This document shows positions 7,684-63,909 of a DNA stretch of 64,000 nt, in pieces. A program made the translations under genes and the position numbers. The notes beneath the pieces are model-generated. The model was not told the origin of the DNA. It worked only from the letters and a program-made list of their open reading frames with translations, and made no database searches. The stretch is from Microcaldota archaeon. GTDB taxonomy: Archaea; Micrarchaeota; Micrarchaeia; Micrarchaeales; Micrarchaeaceae. Where the stretch lies: contig JAKATK010000001.1 of the NCBI GenBank assembly GCA_021827995.1, forward strand, positions 124,001-188,000. Direction: 5' to 3'. The first letter of the stretch is position 1; each line of letters opens with the position of its first letter.

Positions 7684-10230
7684 GTTTCCATGACTGAAAA
7701 GTCGTGGCTCCATTGAAGCATCACATCGTTCTGCTGCGGTACCCCTATGCCTGTGCAGTTTCCATGACTGAAAAGTCGTGGCTCCATTGAAGCGTGCCTT
7801 CTATTTGCATCTCTTCTTCCAATTCTTTCTGTTTCCATGACTGAAAAGTCGTGGCTCCATTGAAGCTTTAATGCAATTGCTAATGTAATGAATGTTATTG
7901 TGTCGTTTCCATGACTGAAAAGTCGTGGCTCCATTGAAGCCTCAAAAGTAAGTATCGCTGTTTAGGGGGTTATCTCGGTTTCCATGACTGAAAAGTCGTG
8001 GCTCCATTGAAGCCAATTCGTATCTGAATGGTATGACGTTATAAACGTTGTAGTTTCCATGACTGAAAAGTCGTGGCTCCATTGAAGCAAGAGGTAATAA
8101 AACGAAAACCGAAAACGAAGAGAGAGTTTCCATGACTGAAAAGTCGTGGCTCCATTGAAGCTGCACGATGGAACGCATATAACATACGACCCCCAGCAAG
8201 TTTCCATGACTGAAAAGTCGTGGCTCCATTGAAGCTCTATTTTTTCTATCTCGTCGTTTCCGAGTATAGACCTAGTTTCCATGACTGAAAAGTCGTGGCT
8301 CCATTGAAGCATCCTGTCATAAGTATTTCATATATATCTTCTTGTGGAGGTTTCCATGACTGAAAAGTCGTGGCTCCATTGAAGCATATCCGAAGCCATT
8401 TCATTCACCATTTGTTCGCATCAGTTTCCATGACTGAAAAGTCGTGGCTCCATTGAAGCGTGATATCATTCGGCGTCGCGCTTGGTCTGGAATTGGGAGA
8501 GGTTTCCATGACTGAAAAGTCGTGGCTCCATTGAAGCACACCCTTGAGGCCGTAGCCCGTCGCGTTGTATGCGAGTTTCCATGACTGAAAAGTCGTGGCT
8601 CCATTGAAGCAAGAGGAATAGATAAAATGAAAAACGACGACGAGGAGAGGTTTCCATGACTGAAAAGTCGTGGCTCCATTGAAGCGTGGTCTATATGGAT
8701 TTTACCGAATTGCTATCCCTCATGTTTCCATGACTGAAAAGTCGTGGCTCCATTGAAGCGTTGAGGGTGCCACAAAACTTAACATAGGGTTGATATGGTT
8801 TCCATGACTGAAAAGTCGTGGCTCCATTGAAGCCAGACATCGTTTTCAGCACCACATCGCGGAACGCAATTGTTTCCATGACTGAAAAGTCGTGGCTCCA
8901 TTGAAGCCCGTATGACCTGCTCGTGGCAGCGTTCCTGCTCACGGTTTCCATGACTGAAAAGTCGTGGCTCCATTGAAGCCCGGACTTCATCAAGCTGTAC
9001 TACGAGAACGTAGTCGGCGTTTCCATGACTGAAAAGTCGTGGCTCCATTGAAGCTCAGACGGACTAAAGAAACTGAAGGGCATACGCCACAAGTTTCCAT
9101 GACTGAAAAGTCGTGGCTCCATTGAAGCTGATCGCATTGTACAACACCTTTAGGCTAACCTCTTTTGGTTTCCATGACTGAAAAGTCGTGGCTCCATTGA
9201 AGCGAGGCATATCTATACACCTTTCTACACATCACAGCGAGTTTCCATGACTGAAAAGTCGTGGCTCCATTGAAGCGGTGCGTGCCCCCTCTGCGGCCTG
9301 CATCTGTCGTACAAGTTTCCATGACTGAAAAGTCGTGGCTCCATTGAAGCACTATGTTGTTCTTAATGCGCAGGAGCCAATCGATGTTGGTTTCCATGAC
9401 TGAAAAGTCGTGGCTCCATTGAAGCGGCGCGTTCTCCTACAACCGTACCATATACGCCGTTCGTTTCCATGACTGAAAAGTCGTGGCTCCATTGAAGCCT
9501 GCTCAAGTACAGCGCCGCGCAGTTCAACTCGCACCTGGTTTCCATGACTGAAAAGTCGTGGCTCCATTGAAGCTTGTAGGTGCTGCCGGCTTCGTCGTGG
9601 AGCTCCACAGTTTCCATGACTAAAAAGTCGTGGCTCCATTGAAGCACGCCATCTATTGTAATAAGGTACATCGTATTGGCTGGTTTCCATGACTGAAAAG
9701 TCGTGGCTCCATTGAAGCAAAGAAGCCCTGCTGGGCTGCTGCTCGTGCTATCGCCTCGTTTCCATGACTGAAAAGTCGTGGCTCCATTGAAGCCAGCCCA
9801 GGGACTTCGCCGCCTGCAGCCTGTGGTTGGTTTCCATGACCGAAAAGTCGTGGCTCCATTGAAGCTGACGACACTAGGCCAGGCTGATGCGCTGCAGGCG
9901 CAGTTTCCATGACTGAAAAGTCGTGGCTCCATCGAAGCCCATATGTTGTGTGCCCATCCATCTAATGCATTGTCAGTTTCCATGACTGAAAAGTCGTGGC
10001 TCCATTGACGCCCTTGGAGGTGTGAACATGACGAAGAGACCGGACATGGTTTCCATGACCGAAAAGTCGTGGCTCCATTGAAGCGTTACCCCTGCCTTCT
10101 GCGCGTACGGCGCGACCGGCAGTTTCCATGACCGAAAAGTCGTGGCTCCATTGAAGCTGCGCTTTGCGTATCGCATTGACGAGACGCTTCTCGCGTTTCC
10201 ATGACCGAAAAGTCGTGGCTCCATTGAAAG
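7684..10230 (+). CRISPR. CRISPR array, 35 repeats of 36 bp and 34 spacers
   Basis: The 36-base repeat begins GTTTCCATGACTGAAAAG and ends GTGGCTCCATTGAAGC. It recurs 35 times (first at 7684, last at 10195) with spacers of about 36 to 42 bases. The ATTGAAGC end is the form expected for an 8-nt crRNA 5' handle, so transcription is plus-strand, away from cas2. The repeat resembles bacterial type I-C/I-G repeats of the CTTCAATG...GGAAAC group when read on the other strand. Repeats from 7684 to about 9573 are uniform; then variants appear: TAAAAAG in the repeat at 9610, GACCGAAAAG in those at 9830, 10049, 10122 and 10195, CCATCGAAGC at 9903, ATTGACGC at 9976, and ATTGAAAG in the last. This marks the array's old end. 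Confidence 0.98.
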
Positions 10231-16617: not shown

Positions 16618-17235
16618 ATGGTTTTCATAGACGACCTGGCCTTCTCGCTTTTCACACTTAGCTTCGCAGGCCTGTTGCTCTTCTACACGATAGCGTCGCT
16701 GTACTTCGTCTACAAGAAACAGCACAGCGAGTTCAAGGAGTACTTGGGCAGCTCTGACGCGCCGCTTATGGTGGTCGGCCTCTTGATGGTCGTGAGCGGC
16801 CTGTGGGGGCAGTTCACGTGGCCGTTGCCAGGCAGCTACAATATACTGTTCTACGACCCATACCTGGCCTTCGGCATCCTGCTCGTCGCGTTCGCGCTAT
16901 CGGTCAGGGAGGGCGTGCGGCTCGAGTACTCTGGCTTTCTCGGCCTCATGGTCGGGGCCATGACCATGGTGTATGGCGTGGTAGGCTATAACGCCGGTTT
17001 GACCCAGGAGCCTGTGGCGCTACTGCTCATGTACCTGCTCTACGGCCTCGCCGGCATATTCGCGTACCCTGTGTCGCTGATAGCCGACAGGCTGCCAGGC
17101 TTGATGCGCAGGAACCTGTGGCCGGGCTGGAACATTTGCCTGGTCGCCTTCGGCGTATTCCTGGTCATAGCTAGCCTACTGGCGGCTTTCGTGGGCGTGG
17201 CAGCGTTACCGGTGCATCTGGCTACGCCGCCGTGA
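16618..17235 (+). CDS. DUF981-like archaeal membrane protein
   Basis: A 205-residue protein with about six or seven hydrophobic segments. The pattern LMVVSGLWGQFTWPLPGSYN followed by LFYDPYLAFG resembles the archaeal DUF981 family of unknown function. It has its own TATA box and divergent orientation from the acyl-CoA dehydrogenase operon, sharing their intergenic region. The next gene downstream has its own promoter. No functional residues can be named. The family call comes from recognised sequence pattern only. Confidence 0.65.
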   Translation: MVFIDDLAFSLFTLSFAGLLLFYTIASLYFVYKKQHSEFKEYLGSSDAPLMVVGLLMVVSGLWGQFTWPLPGSYNILFYDPYLAFGILLVAFALSVREGVRLEYSGFLGLMVGAMTMVYGVVGYNAGLTQEPVALLLMYLLYGLAGIFAYPVSLIADRLPGLMRRNLWPGWNICLVAFGVFLVIASLLAAFVGVAALPVHLATPP

Positions 17236-17309: not shown

Positions 17310-18230
17310 ATGACAGTAATAGCGCTGATTGGATACAGGGATGGCGTGCTTCTTGTGGCCGACAGCAGGGAGACGCACAGCATTCTGGGCATCGTCGACA
17401 CTGGCTACACCCACACGCAGAAGCTGACCAAGCTAACCGATGACATTATAACCGCGGAGGCCGGCGGCGACATCCTTATCAGCCGGGTCAAGTACGCGCT
17501 CAAGTCAGAAACAGCCGGCATAGCGCGCAACGGGCTAACGGACACGATGGCCAACAAGCTCACTGACGCGATAAAGAAGGAGATCGGTTACGATGACGAG
17601 GCCATGCCGATAATGATAAGGTCTATGGGCGGCGCGATACTGCTCGGCATGGTAAAGCTCAGGAACGGCACGGTGCAACCGTTCAGGATAGAGGTGATGC
17701 CCAGCACAGGCATAACCGTCAAGAAGCTGGACAGTGACGCATGCTCTTCTGCCGGCGTGATAGGCACAGATGAGGAGTTCGCGCATCTGATGAAGGTCTA
17801 CAGTTACAATCCGGCCACTGCCTCAGAGCTAGACGCCGAGGCTCTCGGCTACAAGCTCATAAAGCGGATGGAGAAGACGAAGGAGATGGGCGTTAACGTC
17901 GGCGACCCTGTGGAATTCTGTGCCGTGCGCCACGATGGCAGCATGAGGGCGTTCATGGTTGATACGAAGGACGCCTTCAAGAAGGACGCATCAGGTAAGG
18001 ACGACTGGGGGAACAAGGACGAGATGGCCAAGCTGAAGCTGGCTGTAGACCAGGAGCGCGAGAGGGAGATAAAGGCCGCTGCGGCAGAGCATAACCGCGT
18101 AGTGGATAGGTTGCTCGAGTTCCTGAGGCTGAAGCCCACCGGTGAGAAGAGCGGCAAGGGAACCGGGGAGAAGGAGCAGCGCGGTGGCGAAGGCGCGGAG
18201 AACAGGCGCCATAGTACCGAGGAGGAGTGA
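17310..18230 (+). CDS. Proteasome-beta-like N-terminal-nucleophile hydrolase, paralogue 1
   Basis: A 306-residue protein with a proteasome-fold start: MTVIALIGYRDGVLLVADSR. If the initiator Met is removed, Thr1 becomes the N-terminal nucleophile, and Asp17 and Thr21 fall exactly where proteasome beta subunits have them; Lys37 (QKLTKL) is near the expected Lys33 with a small loop insertion. AEAGGD resembles the Gly47 loop, and GTDEEF and a GVNVGDPVEFCAVRHDG stretch match the later strands. Unlike 20S beta it has no propeptide, as in HslV and Anbu. The last 70 residues are a charged helix and Lys/Gly/Glu tail. It forms an operon with the next gene. Protease activity is inferred, not shown. Confidence 0.75.
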   Translation: MTVIALIGYRDGVLLVADSRETHSILGIVDTGYTHTQKLTKLTDDIITAEAGGDILISRVKYALKSETAGIARNGLTDTMANKLTDAIKKEIGYDDEAMPIMIRSMGGAILLGMVKLRNGTVQPFRIEVMPSTGITVKKLDSDACSSAGVIGTDEEFAHLMKVYSYNPATASELDAEALGYKLIKRMEKTKEMGVNVGDPVEFCAVRHDGSMRAFMVDTKDAFKKDASGKDDWGNKDEMAKLKLAVDQEREREIKAAAAEHNRVVDRLLEFLRLKPTGEKSGKGTGEKEQRGGEGAENRRHSTEEE

Positions 18231-18233
18231 CCG

Positions 18234-18686
18234 ATGCCTGATTCGGCCAACATATTCTTCGGGGACCCATCGATGGGCCTGAGCGACAAGGCCTTCCACC
18301 TTGAGGGATATGCAGGACCAGAGTCCGCGATACGGTTGCTCAGGGAGTACGCAGAGGAGACGCACAGCTTCCGTGAGTTCATAGGCGCCCTATTCATGGT
18401 GTCTGGCGGCGACGACCCGGGCCTATACCTGGACAGGGTCGAGTCCGCCAAGCACGACTACATCGTGGACTACGACCAGAACCTGATAAGGATAGTATTA
18501 TACAGGGTGGCTTCGCCGGCGAAGGTCGAGGAGCTTGTCAGGAGCAGCACTGATCTGTATGGCAGGCTGGGCGAGGTGCTGTACGACAAGGGCGCCAGGG
18601 TGGTGATGCTCGTCGTCCAGTTGCTGCCTGGCAAGGGGCCGCTGCGCCCTGCTGGCACAGCACCAGCAGGTGGCAGGCAAGTGTAA
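18234..18686 (+). CDS. Uncharacterised partner of proteasome-like protein
   Basis: A 150-residue protein, three bases downstream of the proteasome-like gene. I do not recognise a family. It is acidic in the first 100 residues (DDPGLYLDRVESAKHDYIVD), has a predicted strand-helix-strand stretch (NLIRIVLYRVASPAKVEELV, then ARVVMLVVQLLPG) and ends in a Pro/Gly/Ala tail. No signal peptide or membrane helix is evident. Operon placement makes it a candidate substrate, adaptor or regulator of the hydrolase. Confidence 0.65.
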   Translation: MPDSANIFFGDPSMGLSDKAFHLEGYAGPESAIRLLREYAEETHSFREFIGALFMVSGGDDPGLYLDRVESAKHDYIVDYDQNLIRIVLYRVASPAKVEELVRSSTDLYGRLGEVLYDKGARVVMLVVQLLPGKGPLRPAGTAPAGGRQV

Positions 18687-58986: not shown

Positions 58987-59490
58987 CTAAGTCTGCTTGC
59001 GTGCCATATGCTGCAGCTTTATGCTGACGCCATCTATCAGCGCGACAAAGTCGCTCTCGTTTAGGAAATAGGACCTGTCGCGCCTCTGGAAGGTGTGCAC
59101 GTTAAGGTTCTCCAAGAGCAGAGCGTCCTTGTCATCCAGGCCGTTGATGTACAGGCCGCGCGCGTCTACTCCGCCCCTGCAGTCGAAGAGCGCGGCTAGG
59201 TAGTTGGCCGAGTAGGAGTTCCTCCACCTGAATATCTTGAGCCGCCTGCCAAGCGCCTCGGCAAATAGCTTTTTCGCTTTGGAGTTGTAGACCAACGCGC
59301 TGACGGTCTCGCCATGCTGGTTTATGCTTATCTTGTTGGGTTCCACACCTAGGCTTTCCATGACCAGCTTCACGAATCGCTCAAGCTGCTCGCCGCTATC
59401 GGTAACTATGCCGATCTCATGGTTAGGATTGCATGCGAAGAGTCCCATCAGGTAACTGATCTCCGGTGTGACCCTCAGTTTCCTTGTCAC
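58987..59490 (-). CDS. Degenerate two-motif LAGLIDADG-fold protein
   Basis: 167 residues. Two LAGLIDADG-like helices are seen: YLMGLFACN at residues 13-21 and YLAALFDCRGGVD at 97-109, about 84 residues apart as in single-chain enzymes, with a VYNSKAKKLF stretch between. The acidic metal ligands that end each motif are replaced (Asn and Arg), so DNA cleavage is unlikely. It may be a domesticated DNA- or RNA-binding protein. It lies just downstream of the 16S gene on the same strand, with its own TATA-like TTGTTAAATC (about 59540-59550), and starts with GTG. Confidence 0.6.
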   Translation of the reverse strand: MTRKLRVTPEISYLMGLFACNPNHEIGIVTDSGEQLERFVKLVMESLGVEPNKISINQHGETVSALVYNSKAKKLFAEALGRRLKIFRWRNSYSANYLAALFDCRGGVDARGLYINGLDDKDALLLENLNVHTFQRRDRSYFLNESDFVALIDGVSIKLQHMARKQT

Positions 59491-59628: not shown

Positions 59629-59651
59629 TGCGAAACGCACACAGAATATTC

Positions 59652-61136
59652 GAGGTGATCTATCCGCAGGTTCCCCTACGGATACCTTGTTATGCCTTAG
59701 CCCTCCTCACAGAACCCTAACTCGAAAGTGCCCGAAGGCACTGCCTCACTAGGACTCCACTTGGGTGACTTGGCAGGCGGTGTGTGCAAGGAGCAGGGAC
59801 AGATTCACCGCTCGATAGTGACAAGCGATTACTAGGGATTCCAGCTTCATGAGGGCGAGTTTCAGCCCTCAATCCGAACTTGGGTTGGTTTTAGGGGATT
59901 GGCTTCGCCTTTCGGCGTTGCATCTCATTGTGCCAACCTTTGTATGCCGCGTGTAGCCCAGGAGATTCAGAGCATACTGACGTACCGTGGCCTTCTCCTT
60001 CCTCCTCTTTAAACAGAGGCGGTCCCGACAGAGTGCCTGGCCGGTCTCCCGACCAGTTGCAACTGTCAGCGAAGGTCTCGCTCGTTACCGGACTTAACCG
60101 GACAGTTCACACCACGAGCTGACGATCGCCATGCACTACCTCTCGGCTCGTTAGGCAAGATCTTTAGTCTGGCCTTCATCCTGCCGTCGCTCCTGGTAAT
60201 GTTTCCGACGTTGAATTCAATTAAACCGCAGCATCCACCCCTTGTGGTGCTCCCCCGCCAATTGCTTTAAGTTTCAATCTTGCGACCGTACTCCCCAGGC
60301 GGCAGACTTAACACTTTCGCTACGGTACTGCAAACGTTCGAGACATTTGCAACACCAGAGTCTGCATGATTTACTGCTAGGGCTACTCGGGTATCTGATC
60401 CGATTCGTTCTCCTAGCCTTCGCCCCTCACTGTCGGATGCGTTCTGGTCAGGCGCCTTCGCCACCGTTGGTCCTCATAGGATTACAGGATTTTACCCCTT
60501 CCCAATGAGTACCCCTGACCTCACCCGCTCCCTAGCCGATGGGTATCTCACGCACGCATTGACGTTGAGCGCCAATATTTCACGTGAGACGACACCAGCC
60601 AGCTACGGGCGCTTTAAGCCCAATAATCGCGGGCACCACTTGTGCTGCCGGTATTACCGTGGCGGCTGCCACCGGTCTTGCCCAGCACTTATTCTCCGAG
60701 CTTGCTAAACTCGGCAAAAGGTTCACCGAAGTGAACCACTCAGATTCCCCCCATCACGCTTACGCGCATTGTGGAGTTTGCGCGCCTGCTGCACGCCGTA
60801 GCGCTAGGGCCCTTGTCTCAGTGCCCTTCTCGGGGCTCCTGCTCCCACAGCCCCTACGGGTTATCGGTTTGGTGGGCCGTTACCCCGCCAACAGCCTGAT
60901 CCGCCGCAGTCTCATCGTAGTGTGGCAACGCTGCAATTCGCGCGCCTTTCAGCTAGGGCTCCTTCCAGATGCCCTAGCCTATGGTGTATTAGCCACAGTT
61001 TCCCGTGGTTATCCTCCTCACTACGGTAGATTGACTACGTGTTACTGAGCCGTACGCCGCCCAACGAAGCCGTTGAGCCGACTTGCATGGCTGTCGAAAT
61101 CTGATAGCAGTGCCCTCCAGCAGCATCGACTGGAGT
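59652..61136 (-). rRNA. rrs: 16S ribosomal RNA
   Basis: About 1485 bases, no intron. Conserved blocks read on the minus strand: AACAAGGTATCCGTAGGGGA near the 3' end, GGTAATACCGGC in the 530 region, GAGTAACACGTAGTC near the 5' end. The 5' end reads ACTCCAGTCGATGCTGCTGG in place of the usual TTCCGGTTGATCCTGCCGG. The 3' end reads GATCACCTCGAA, so the anti-Shine-Dalgarno core CCTCC is CCTCG. No 23S, 5S or tRNA-Ala follows; the gene is a single unit. Confidence 0.95.
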
Positions 61137-61508: not shown

Positions 61509-61520
61509 TTGTGCAAAAAT

Positions 61521-62033
61521 ATGTTCGGTAGTGATTGGGTGGAGACGGACAAGAAGCATGAGCTTACGCCTGCCCAGGCCATGGCCGCGCTCGAGAGCAA
61601 GGCTGATGCCACCATAGATGCGCTCTCAAAGCTGTGGGACTGGAGCCGCGACGATTCCGGCCTGCAGAACCATACGAGCGATGACATAAGCCGCTGCGGC
61701 TCGATATTGAAGGCTTTCAAGGAGCAGAAGGATGGGATCCAGAAGTCTAAAGGGTACACGTTCAAGACTCATTATGCGGTCTGGAGGGCAACGCATGCGA
61801 TTGGCAACGACATCATAACGCTGGCGTTGAGCAAGATGGATGGGCTGTCGCCGCACACGCCAGAGCAGGTGCTGAAGGTCTGCGAAGTCATAAACGGCAT
61901 GGAAGCCCTTAGCGATTACGAGAAACAGGTAGCTAGGTACACGCTCAAGATGCGCTACCTGAACCGCCTCACTACCGACTACGAGGATCTCGAGAAGCAG
62001 CTAGAGGAGTTCAGGAAGAAGCTCAGGAGATGA
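61521..62033 (+). CDS. Uncharacterised helical protein in hydrolase cluster
   Basis: About 170 residues, helical, ending in a coiled coil (DYEDLEKQLEEFRKKLRR). No family recognised, no signal or membrane segment. The start is unclear: ATG 61521 lies close to the TATA-like element near 61498-61507; GTG 61539, with a GGTAGTGAT ribosome-like motif, fits better but shortens the protein by six residues. The next gene starts four bases after the stop. Confidence 0.65.
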   Translation: MFGSDWVETDKKHELTPAQAMAALESKADATIDALSKLWDWSRDDSGLQNHTSDDISRCGSILKAFKEQKDGIQKSKGYTFKTHYAVWRATHAIGNDIITLALSKMDGLSPHTPEQVLKVCEVINGMEALSDYEKQVARYTLKMRYLNRLTTDYEDLEKQLEEFRKKLRR

Positions 62034-62037
62034 TGGC

Positions 62038-63042
62038 ATGGAGCGCAGCAAAGGCATAAGCATTTATAACGGCCCGGATTCCACCGGCGTTGGCCTGCGC
62101 GCCAACGAGGTCAATGACGGCGCCTCGCCCAAGCATCTTGAACGAAAGGACCTCAAGGCTAGGGCAGAAGCGGTGCGCAAGGGCGAGATCGACCAGCGGG
62201 CAAGGCTGGACGTCTGGGTGGCCGAGAACGTGCTGGGCGAGCTGCAGAGGTCGAAGATAAACGCCGAGCCGATAAGCGGGTCGCTCATAAAGGAGAAGTT
62301 CGCAGACGTCGGGATAGACCTGAGCGACAAGGACGCCGACAGGATACAGCTCAATATAATAAAGGCGGAGAGCTTTGAGAAGAAACTCATGATGCTGATG
62401 AGCTACGGGGCCATGGGCATGATGGGCGGCCTCTGGGTGCACGGCATGGCCGGCATACTAAGCATCCTCGGCGGCGCTGGGATACTTGCACTTGGCGCTG
62501 CCTCGATAAGCATGATGCTCTACTACAAGCATCTACAGAAGAACATCGAGAGGAGCATTGCGGAGGTTGTGGGTAGGGAGTACTCGAAAGAACCGGACAT
62601 GGCCAACTCCTCGAACCTATCGCATAAGAAGATAGCATTGGTGCAGACCCTGACGAGCCAGTTCTACGAGGATGACAAGGCGGAGCGTGCATTCATAATC
62701 GAGTCACTAAAGAAGCACGGAGTAAAACACCCGGAGGCGTACGCAGACGAGGCGCTCGAGGACATAAAGAAGCTGCAGTCAGAGATGCGCAAGAAGGGCA
62801 GGAACGAGGGCATAGTAACCGGCTTAGTTGGTGCCAGCGCTCTGGTGGCGTTCGCGACGACCAGTTGGATAGGCTGGATTGCAGGCATACTGCTCTACAC
62901 GAACGGCATGGCAGCGTACTATCTGACTAGGCAGATAGGCTACTGGGACTATAGGGACCTCGTGCGCGTCTCTGGCGAGGCCCTAGCTGATGAGAGTGTC
63001 ATCATAAGGCCGAACGCAGAATTGGCGCTTCTCCGGCAATGA
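62038..63042 (+). CDS. Four-helix membrane protein in hydrolase cluster
   Basis: 334 residues: a soluble N-terminal part (1-115, charged helices), two membrane helices at about 117-163 (YGAMGMMGGLW, then GILALGAASISMMLYY), a soluble middle (165-255, KHGVKHPEAYADEALEDI), and two more helices at about 258-297. Both soluble parts should be on the same, probably cytoplasmic, side. No family recognised. It lies between the helical protein and a proteasome-like hydrolase, with 30 bases to the latter. Confidence 0.7.
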   Translation: MERSKGISIYNGPDSTGVGLRANEVNDGASPKHLERKDLKARAEAVRKGEIDQRARLDVWVAENVLGELQRSKINAEPISGSLIKEKFADVGIDLSDKDADRIQLNIIKAESFEKKLMMLMSYGAMGMMGGLWVHGMAGILSILGGAGILALGAASISMMLYYKHLQKNIERSIAEVVGREYSKEPDMANSSNLSHKKIALVQTLTSQFYEDDKAERAFIIESLKKHGVKHPEAYADEALEDIKKLQSEMRKKGRNEGIVTGLVGASALVAFATTSWIGWIAGILLYTNGMAAYYLTRQIGYWDYRDLVRVSGEALADESVIIRPNAELALLRQ

Positions 63043-63072
63043 AGACGAGCATGATTATAACAGGCGTGTTGG

Positions 63073-63909
63073 ATGACTGTAATCGGGCAGATACCATACA
63101 AGGACGGCGTCCTCATAGTGGCCGACAGCAGGGCCACGCTTGCCAATCAGTTCTTCGTCAAGTACATAGATGACGAGCAGAAGATATACAGATCGGATGA
63201 CAAGGACATAACCGTCGCCATAGCAGGCAATGCCGTGCTGGGCATAGACGCCGCCAAGGCCCTCACCACGAGCGAGTCTATACTAAAGGAGTACGCAAAG
63301 ACCGGCGACGAGAAAGCCAAGAAGATACTAGAGTACATACTGAACGGCTCATCCAGCATGCCGGCAAATCCTATGGCTGGCTTCGCAGGCCTGCTGGTCA
63401 GCGTGCGCCTGTCTGACAACACAGTCAAGACCCTCACGATACTCGTTGGGGATCTCGGCAAGGGCAAGGAGGTCAGGTTCCTCGATGCGTCGAGGCCATT
63501 CGCCATGGGCGTAGACCGGACCGTGCCGGTGTATCTGAACGACCTGCTCAAAGCCCACTGTCCCGACGTAAACAGCAGGACCTTGGCGGACGCGCTTACC
63601 ATAGCGTTCCTTCTTGAGGACGCTTACATCGAGGAGCACTACCCGATACCATACATGGGCAAGAAGATCCTGGGCGTCGGCGGCGCCATAAGGCTGCGCG
63701 CCACAGAGAAGGACTGGACCCTAGAGGCTGTGATAAACAAGAGCGGGAGGAAGCAGCTGGAGGGCAAGTCCTACGATGAGTTGAGGGACTACTTCGCCCA
63801 GAGGATTGCCGACGCAAAGCAGCAGAATAAAGCGGACGAGCTGAAGCATCTGCTGCGTGCTGACCAGATGGCAGTGGCAAAGAAGAGTGCTGGCCGCAGC
63901 ACCCAATAG
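63073..63909 (+). CDS. Proteasome-beta-like N-terminal-nucleophile hydrolase, paralogue 2
   Basis: 278 residues, MTVIGQIPYKDGVLIVADSR at the start, clearly related to the protein at 17.3-18.2 kb. After Met removal Thr1, Asp17 and Thr21 align with proteasome beta; Lys36 (EQKIYRSDDKD) takes the Lys33 role; VAIAGNAVLG is the Gly47 loop; RPFAMGVDRT resembles the stretch before Ser129. Metabolic Ntn hydrolases differ in this region. The C-terminal end is basic and helical (AKQQNKADELKHLL). Its operon supplies a membrane protein that could anchor it. Activity is inferred. Confidence 0.75.
   Translation: MTVIGQIPYKDGVLIVADSRATLANQFFVKYIDDEQKIYRSDDKDITVAIAGNAVLGIDAAKALTTSESILKEYAKTGDEKAKKILEYILNGSSSMPANPMAGFAGLLVSVRLSDNTVKTLTILVGDLGKGKEVRFLDASRPFAMGVDRTVPVYLNDLLKAHCPDVNSRTLADALTIAFLLEDAYIEEHYPIPYMGKKILGVGGAIRLRATEKDWTLEAVINKSGRKQLEGKSYDELRDYFAQRIADAKQQNKADELKHLLRADQMAVAKKSAGRSTQ

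Follow-up and report, generated by a model that had tools for sequence, protein, structure and literature searches.

A proteasome-fold hydrolase gene linked to genes for a helical and a membrane protein, and its paralogues in one genus of Micrarchaeota

Organisation and conservation of the three-gene locus

We analysed three genes that lie on the forward strand near the end of the window, by which we mean the whole stretch of 64,000 nucleotides under study. The first (61521–62033) encodes a helical, highly charged soluble protein of 170–174 residues, its reading frame opened by an ATG at 61521 and also by a TTG at 61509. The second (62038–63042) encodes a membrane protein of 334 residues in which hydropathy marks two hydrophobic hairpins, and the third (63073–63909) a proteasome-fold (Ntn) hydrolase of 278 residues, recognized from its open reading frame, an AF2 model, Foldseek and a family profile. 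All three open reading frames of the trio described in an earlier note on this DNA are present on the plus strand, separated by intergenic gaps of 4 and 30 nucleotides.

Upstream of the trio, on the opposite strand, lies the 16S rRNA gene (59650–61136). This rRNA gene stands alone, and on reading the sequence we had the impression that a small adjoining open reading frame (58987–59490, minus strand) resembles a homing-endonuclease-type protein. Downstream, directly past the end of the window, is a tyrosine-recombinase (integrase) gene (L045:8074–9000, contig C20), and in the related genome G006 a homologous integrase gene (L051:4241–5014) lies about 3.5 kb from another hydrolase, so that each of the two is near a different hydrolase locus.

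Both neighbours of the hydrolase recur in one other genome. An orthologue of the membrane protein was found solely in G006 among 301 genomes of the phylum, and an orthologue of the helical protein (34% identity) solely in G006 among the five genomes of the genus; each sits beside the orthologous hydrolase, the orthology of the trio hydrolases of this genome (G000) and G006 carrying tree support of 100/99. The neighbours are thus conserved in a relative, and the co-occurrence across Micrarchaeota for which the earlier note proposed a search narrows to two genomes of a single genus. The G006 hydrolase points towards the other two genes, convergent with them and separated from them by an ankyrin gene, and the set has a different location and different surroundings: on one side it has a second hydrolase and on the other a gene that directly adjoins that hydrolase in genomes G035 and G231. 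The earlier note had taken the trio for a three-gene operon; the convergent orientation in G006 means that a single operon, and with it co-transcription, is not conserved.

A chance arrangement or residual synteny, with neighbours unconnected with the hydrolase, would be in keeping with a trio common to only two genomes of one genus. Against this, conserved adjacency between G000 and G006 is very low at the sampled loci: in stretches sampled around hydrolases, rather than whole genomes, 2 of 96 adjacent pairs are conserved (3 within three genes), and two of these links are inside the trio. Order and orientation have also been altered in G006, and elsewhere in the family pairing with a partner is perfect (a 150-residue protein, 6 of 6 copies, described below). 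Because both neighbours recur by the orthologous hydrolase while background adjacency is so low, the linkage of the trio exceeds chance, and we consider coincidence quite improbable.

Fold and active site of the trio hydrolase

The AF2 model of the trio hydrolase, built from 27 family sequences (pLDDT 93.6, pTM 0.89), has the four-layer α-β-β-α proteasome fold. Its best Foldseek matches are 20S β subunits (E ~1e-9), with Anbu (5nyg) matched at E 6.7e-8, and the family profile matches proteasome β chains among solved structures (E 5.6e-6). Four residues, T2, D18, K37 and G52, are the equivalents of Thr1, Asp17, Lys33 and Gly47 and are invariant in a three-way alignment with a paralogue and the genome's own 20S β subunit. 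The predicted nucleophile Thr (codon 63076–63078), which would be Thr1 after removal of Met, is found in all 27 aligned members as well as in the genome's 20S β, and the equivalents of Asp17 (63124–63126) and of Gly47 of the oxyanion hole (63226–63228) are likewise invariant. The Lys33 equivalent (63181–63183) does not vary in alignment A4 or in that with 20S β; in the 27-member alignment A1, inspection by eye finds it in all members, with the register slightly shifted. Some of the 27 members that keep Thr, Asp and Gly are just 17–25% identical, and retention of catalytic residues at such divergence argues for active enzymes in the family.

In 28 of 30 family members, including the trio hydrolase (Met-Thr), the start codon is immediately 5′ of the Thr codon, so that Met removal would suffice and no propeptide cleavage would be needed. 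Two paralogues of G006 begin differently: that on C21 (L051:8506–9402) starts MAVRRFG-TVIAL, like the Gly-Thr propeptide junction of 20S β, its two close orthologues starting MTVIAL, and that on C13 (L055, minus strand, near 8500) has Ile before Thr in the frame GVA-I-TVIAL, with no usual start codon there. At the other end of the trio hydrolase, the model places a 43-residue C-terminal helix (residues 234–276, 63772–63900; pLDDT >90 over most of it) that exceeds H5 of 20S β, as the helix of Anbu does.

Curated models leave the protein below their cut-offs: PF00227 (Pfam proteasome) gives 15.2 bits against 22.4, TIGR03634 gives 13.7 of 224 and TIGR03690 gives 23.5 of 191.9. The HslV model NF003964 is reached by one of 27 family members, at E 0.0082, and not by the trio hydrolase. 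The genome encodes an ordinary 20S β subunit on C6, with the Gly-Thr propeptide junction ...MKG-TTTIG, and an α subunit on C21, one canonical copy of each. Given this separate pair, the trio hydrolase is not the strain's ordinary β subunit, the identity that would have undone the earlier proposal; it is a hydrolase of the proteasome type that stands apart from that subunit.

A closer tie to the proteasome would exist if the hydrolases could replace the usual catalytic subunits in the 20S particle of the cell, as happens in the immunoproteasome. Such a role would draw on a fold and an active site that are the same as those of the genome's β subunit, and on the presence of both canonical subunits. 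It is, however, at odds with the much longer C-terminal helix and tail of the model, with the lack of a propeptide in 28 of 30 members, with dedicated partners unrelated to the proteasome and with the profile comparison, in which canonical β aligns with the family over just 63 columns (20S α gave no alignment with the family). We regard it as very improbable.

The PAN/Mpa OB domain (PF16450) was not found above cut-off in any of the 301 Micrarchaeota genomes, in which 20S subunits are present. We considered the absence of PAN as a trait of the genus and set this idea aside, because PF16450 above cut-off is missing across the whole phylum and its absence is nothing special to the genus. The trio itself has no AAA+ gene, the class to which HslU, the partner of HslV, belongs.

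Partner genes and the proposed modules

Hydropathy places the hydrophobic blocks of the membrane protein at about residues 117–166 (50 residues; 62386–62535) and 256–296 (41 residues; 62803–62925). Each block is long enough for a two-helix hairpin, and the hydrophilic parts (residues 1–116, 167–255 and 297–334) are therefore predicted to lie on one side of the membrane, the topology that the earlier note had also read from the sequence. Since the hydrolase starts Met-Thr and has no apparent signal peptide, any compartment that it shares with these soluble parts would be the cytoplasm. An AF2 model of the membrane protein, built from two sequences, was poor (pLDDT 46.5), with helices breaking where the hairpins should turn.

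The membrane protein matched no known family, and the helical protein had no convincing match in Pfam, NCBIfam, PADLOC or PHROG; PADLOC gave nothing significant for the trio, the best match being that of GajA to a 60-residue part of the membrane protein (E 0.0049). Several further ideas were rejected. Internal duplication of the membrane protein received inconsistent answers from shuffles (p ~0.17 and 0.014 for whole halves), and the soluble parts taken by themselves were mostly unsupported. A C-terminal LLR motif, considered as a targeting or cleavage signal, occurs in 14 of 29 hydrolases yet is absent from the G006 membrane protein, and for this reason we take it as family similarity only. 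By hhalign, the trio membrane protein is not homologous to a small hairpin protein beside another hydrolase, and no homology was found between the trio helical protein and the helical CPxC partner of relatives in other genera.

The hydrolase has many paralogues. A profile search of 301 Micrarchaeota genomes returned 30 members at 162 bits or more, all from a single genus, whose five genomes carry 7, 7, 8, 5 and 3 copies; the family thus has at least 30 members. Non-members in this search scored at most 33 bits and were largely short proteins of canonical-β length. The family tree divides into eight or more groups, most of them with good support, and the paralogues are a genus-wide radiation of modules. 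An exact short-pattern scan, which would miss distant relatives, found relatives among GTDB species in the Candidatus Micrarchaeota MAGs FK3.bin83, MAS5.bin21 and clean615, and none in viral contigs. A viral origin of the family was rejected on the same absence from viral contigs and on structural matches to phage proteasome-like proteins that are weaker than those to 20S β. Separately, a reading frame at G069:C12 around 135199 (L114) runs for some 12,373 codons and apparently encodes a giant protein.

The paralogue reported in the earlier note, with the common start MTVI..DGVL.VADSR, is a group A hydrolase of 306 residues in the same window (17310–18230, plus strand). The note knew these two copies and took them for one duplicated module in a soluble and a membrane-linked version; this genome has seven, and while the paralogues do have different partners, the pair dissolves into the radiation just described. 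Adjoining the group A hydrolase is its dedicated 150-residue partner (18234–18686, plus strand): six copies were found in 301 genomes, spread over four or more gene contexts, and every one directly adjoins a hydrolase of group A. A DUF981 membrane protein gene (16618–17235) lies 75 nucleotides upstream of this hydrolase on the same strand; the remaining group A loci showed no such gene.

Elsewhere the neighbours differ again. A J-domain (DnaJ) protein partners two of three members of one hydrolase group, and three consecutive TrkA_N (RCK-type) genes, two of them with membrane segments, lie immediately downstream of another in three genomes (L051:9510–11488, L058:16138–18109 and L065:5554–7543). 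G006, G035 and G231 are largely collinear at the DnaJ and TrkA_N groups, which makes that linkage weaker evidence, as it may be plain synteny. Further partners are ankyrin-repeat proteins and a DUF218 protein. In the sister pair G000_C16 and G035_C17a (support 98/96), a small hydrophobic-hairpin protein follows the hydrolase in both genomes, the two hairpin proteins being weakly alike (E 0.018).

Divergent hydrolases with changing partners could also be effectors of conflict (defence) systems, diversifying fast alongside sensor partners and mobile in the genome. The restriction of the radiation to one genus, its strong divergence and the scatter of its loci over different places would fit such systems, as would the integrase genes near two hydrolase loci (L045:8074–9000 and G006) and the match of an ankyrin partner to a PADLOC candidate family (E 2.4e-54). 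Ankyrin matches are generic, however; neither the hydrolase nor the trio has a meaningful PADLOC or PHROG match, the short-pattern scan found no relatives in viral contigs and the loci of several orthogroups are collinear, with other conserved genes alongside. We judge a defence function unlikely.

We put about even weight on the reading that the trio is one module, in which a threonine-nucleophile amide hydrolase of the proteasome fold would work on the cytoplasmic side of the membrane with an anchor and an adaptor. Methionine aminopeptidase would expose Thr1 of the hydrolase, and the equivalents of Asp17, Lys33 and Gly47 would complete a 20S-type active site. The long C-terminal helix may pair subunits or dock partners, the two-hairpin protein of 334 residues may anchor the hydrolase to the membrane or pass membrane substrates to it and the 170-residue helical protein may help assembly or serve as an adaptor. 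The paralogous modules have partners of other kinds (J-domain, ankyrin-repeat, TrkA_N/RCK and 150-residue proteins), so partner choice, rather than an AAA+ unfoldase, would decide the substrate of each paralogous enzyme. We infer catalysis, its direction, membrane tethering and complex formation from the active site and the gene linkage; the sequence of the hydrolase cannot tell proteolysis from ligation or inactivity.

Extended to the genus, this becomes a tentative proposal, which we hold with less than even confidence: at least eight parallel modules for AAA+-independent targeted proteolysis (or ligation), each steered by a partner of its own, be it a membrane hairpin protein, a J-domain co-chaperone, an ankyrin adaptor, a TrkA_N/RCK channel-type protein or the 150-residue protein. 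The partner genes of the Micrarchaeota hydrolases suggest proteolytic machines that are directed to specific cellular sites. If this is right, partner genes and not unfoldases would specify both the substrate and the cellular location, and the radiation would be unusually large for reduced genomes of about 1 Mb. The partner genes also pose a testable question: can an enzyme of the proteasome fold do without an AAA+ unfoldase and rely on a membrane anchor, a J-domain protein or an ankyrin protein?

Comparison with known systems

The trio hydrolase shares with the 20S β subunit (PF00227; MEROPS T1) its fold, the Thr1, Asp17, Lys33 and Gly47 positions and a DG..AD.R segment. It differs from that subunit in its sub-cut-off Pfam score, in beginning directly with Met-Thr rather than with a propeptide and in its 43-residue C-terminal helix, and the family differs in its many paralogues and dedicated non-proteasomal neighbours. 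Anbu, the bacterial ancestral β-subunit protein, likewise has a long C-terminal helix, which in Anbu forms a coiled coil between subunits, and matches the model structurally, and in Anbu, as in the trio hydrolase, Met directly precedes Thr. The trio hydrolase is archaeal, however, has no sequence-family match to Anbu and lies in another gene context.

The closest relatives outside the genus are proteins of 230–330 residues of the MT[ILV]VCA..GSDG type, encoded elsewhere in the archaeal family to which the genus belongs (L125–L129) and patchily distributed (10 of 85 genomes of that family). They align nearly end to end with the hydrolase family (hhalign 96–97%, E 1e-9 to 1e-10, ~205–212 columns) but are single-copy, and both members scanned exceed the Pfam proteasome cut-off, whereas the trio hydrolase falls below it. 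A conserved helical CPxC protein without a Pfam family adjoins the single-copy relative in all four loci L126–L129 (G065, G091, G214 and G219), and a glycosyltransferase-like gene lies near it in three of them; the copy in G134 (L125) is a more divergent single-copy relative and is left out of this four-of-four count.

Connectase, a proteasome homologue, is a monomeric protein ligase of archaea (PMC8665760), known from some methanogens; it resembles the hydrolase family as a proteasome-fold archaeal enzyme of narrow distribution. Its precedent for ligase activity invites the view that our hydrolases, rather than degrading proteins in bulk, ligate or process them in a sequence-specific way, each with a single dedicated substrate or a small number of them, among which the neighbouring partner itself might be. 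One dedicated partner per hydrolase clade would fit enzyme–substrate pairs, and the phylum has no canonical PAN OB domain above cut-off. Connectase, though, carries two inserted helices over the active site, between strands 3 and 4, and the model of the trio hydrolase has no helices there, with just short strands between residues 21 and 40; some paralogues do have 10–30 extra residues in this region. No conserved recognition motif was found in the partners either, the LLR tail motif not being kept in the G006 membrane protein. We think connectase-like activity unlikely; an alternative 20S subunit and coincidence are the weakest of the four alternatives weighed here.

Fuchs, Alva and Lupas (2021) distinguished 22 new subfamilies of proteasome-like homologues in prokaryotes, including WPH, ACC, PHI and PMI, of which WPH and ACC have a C-terminal coiled coil (PMC8665760). 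The survey reports no genomic contexts suggestive of function, and its main text does not mention Micrarchaeota (PMC8665760). As divergent prokaryotic proteins of the T1 fold, these homologues are of the same broad kind as the hydrolase family, which differs, WPH, ACC and the other clusters being compared by description only, in its confinement to a single genus with a radiation and partner genes. Dedicated, exclusively paired partner genes hint at function where the survey found no informative context, and we found no description of the Micrarchaeota radiation in the openly licensed literature. The hydrolase family is thus of a known, proteasome-like kind, and what is new about it is its copy number, its taxonomic confinement and its dedicated partners.
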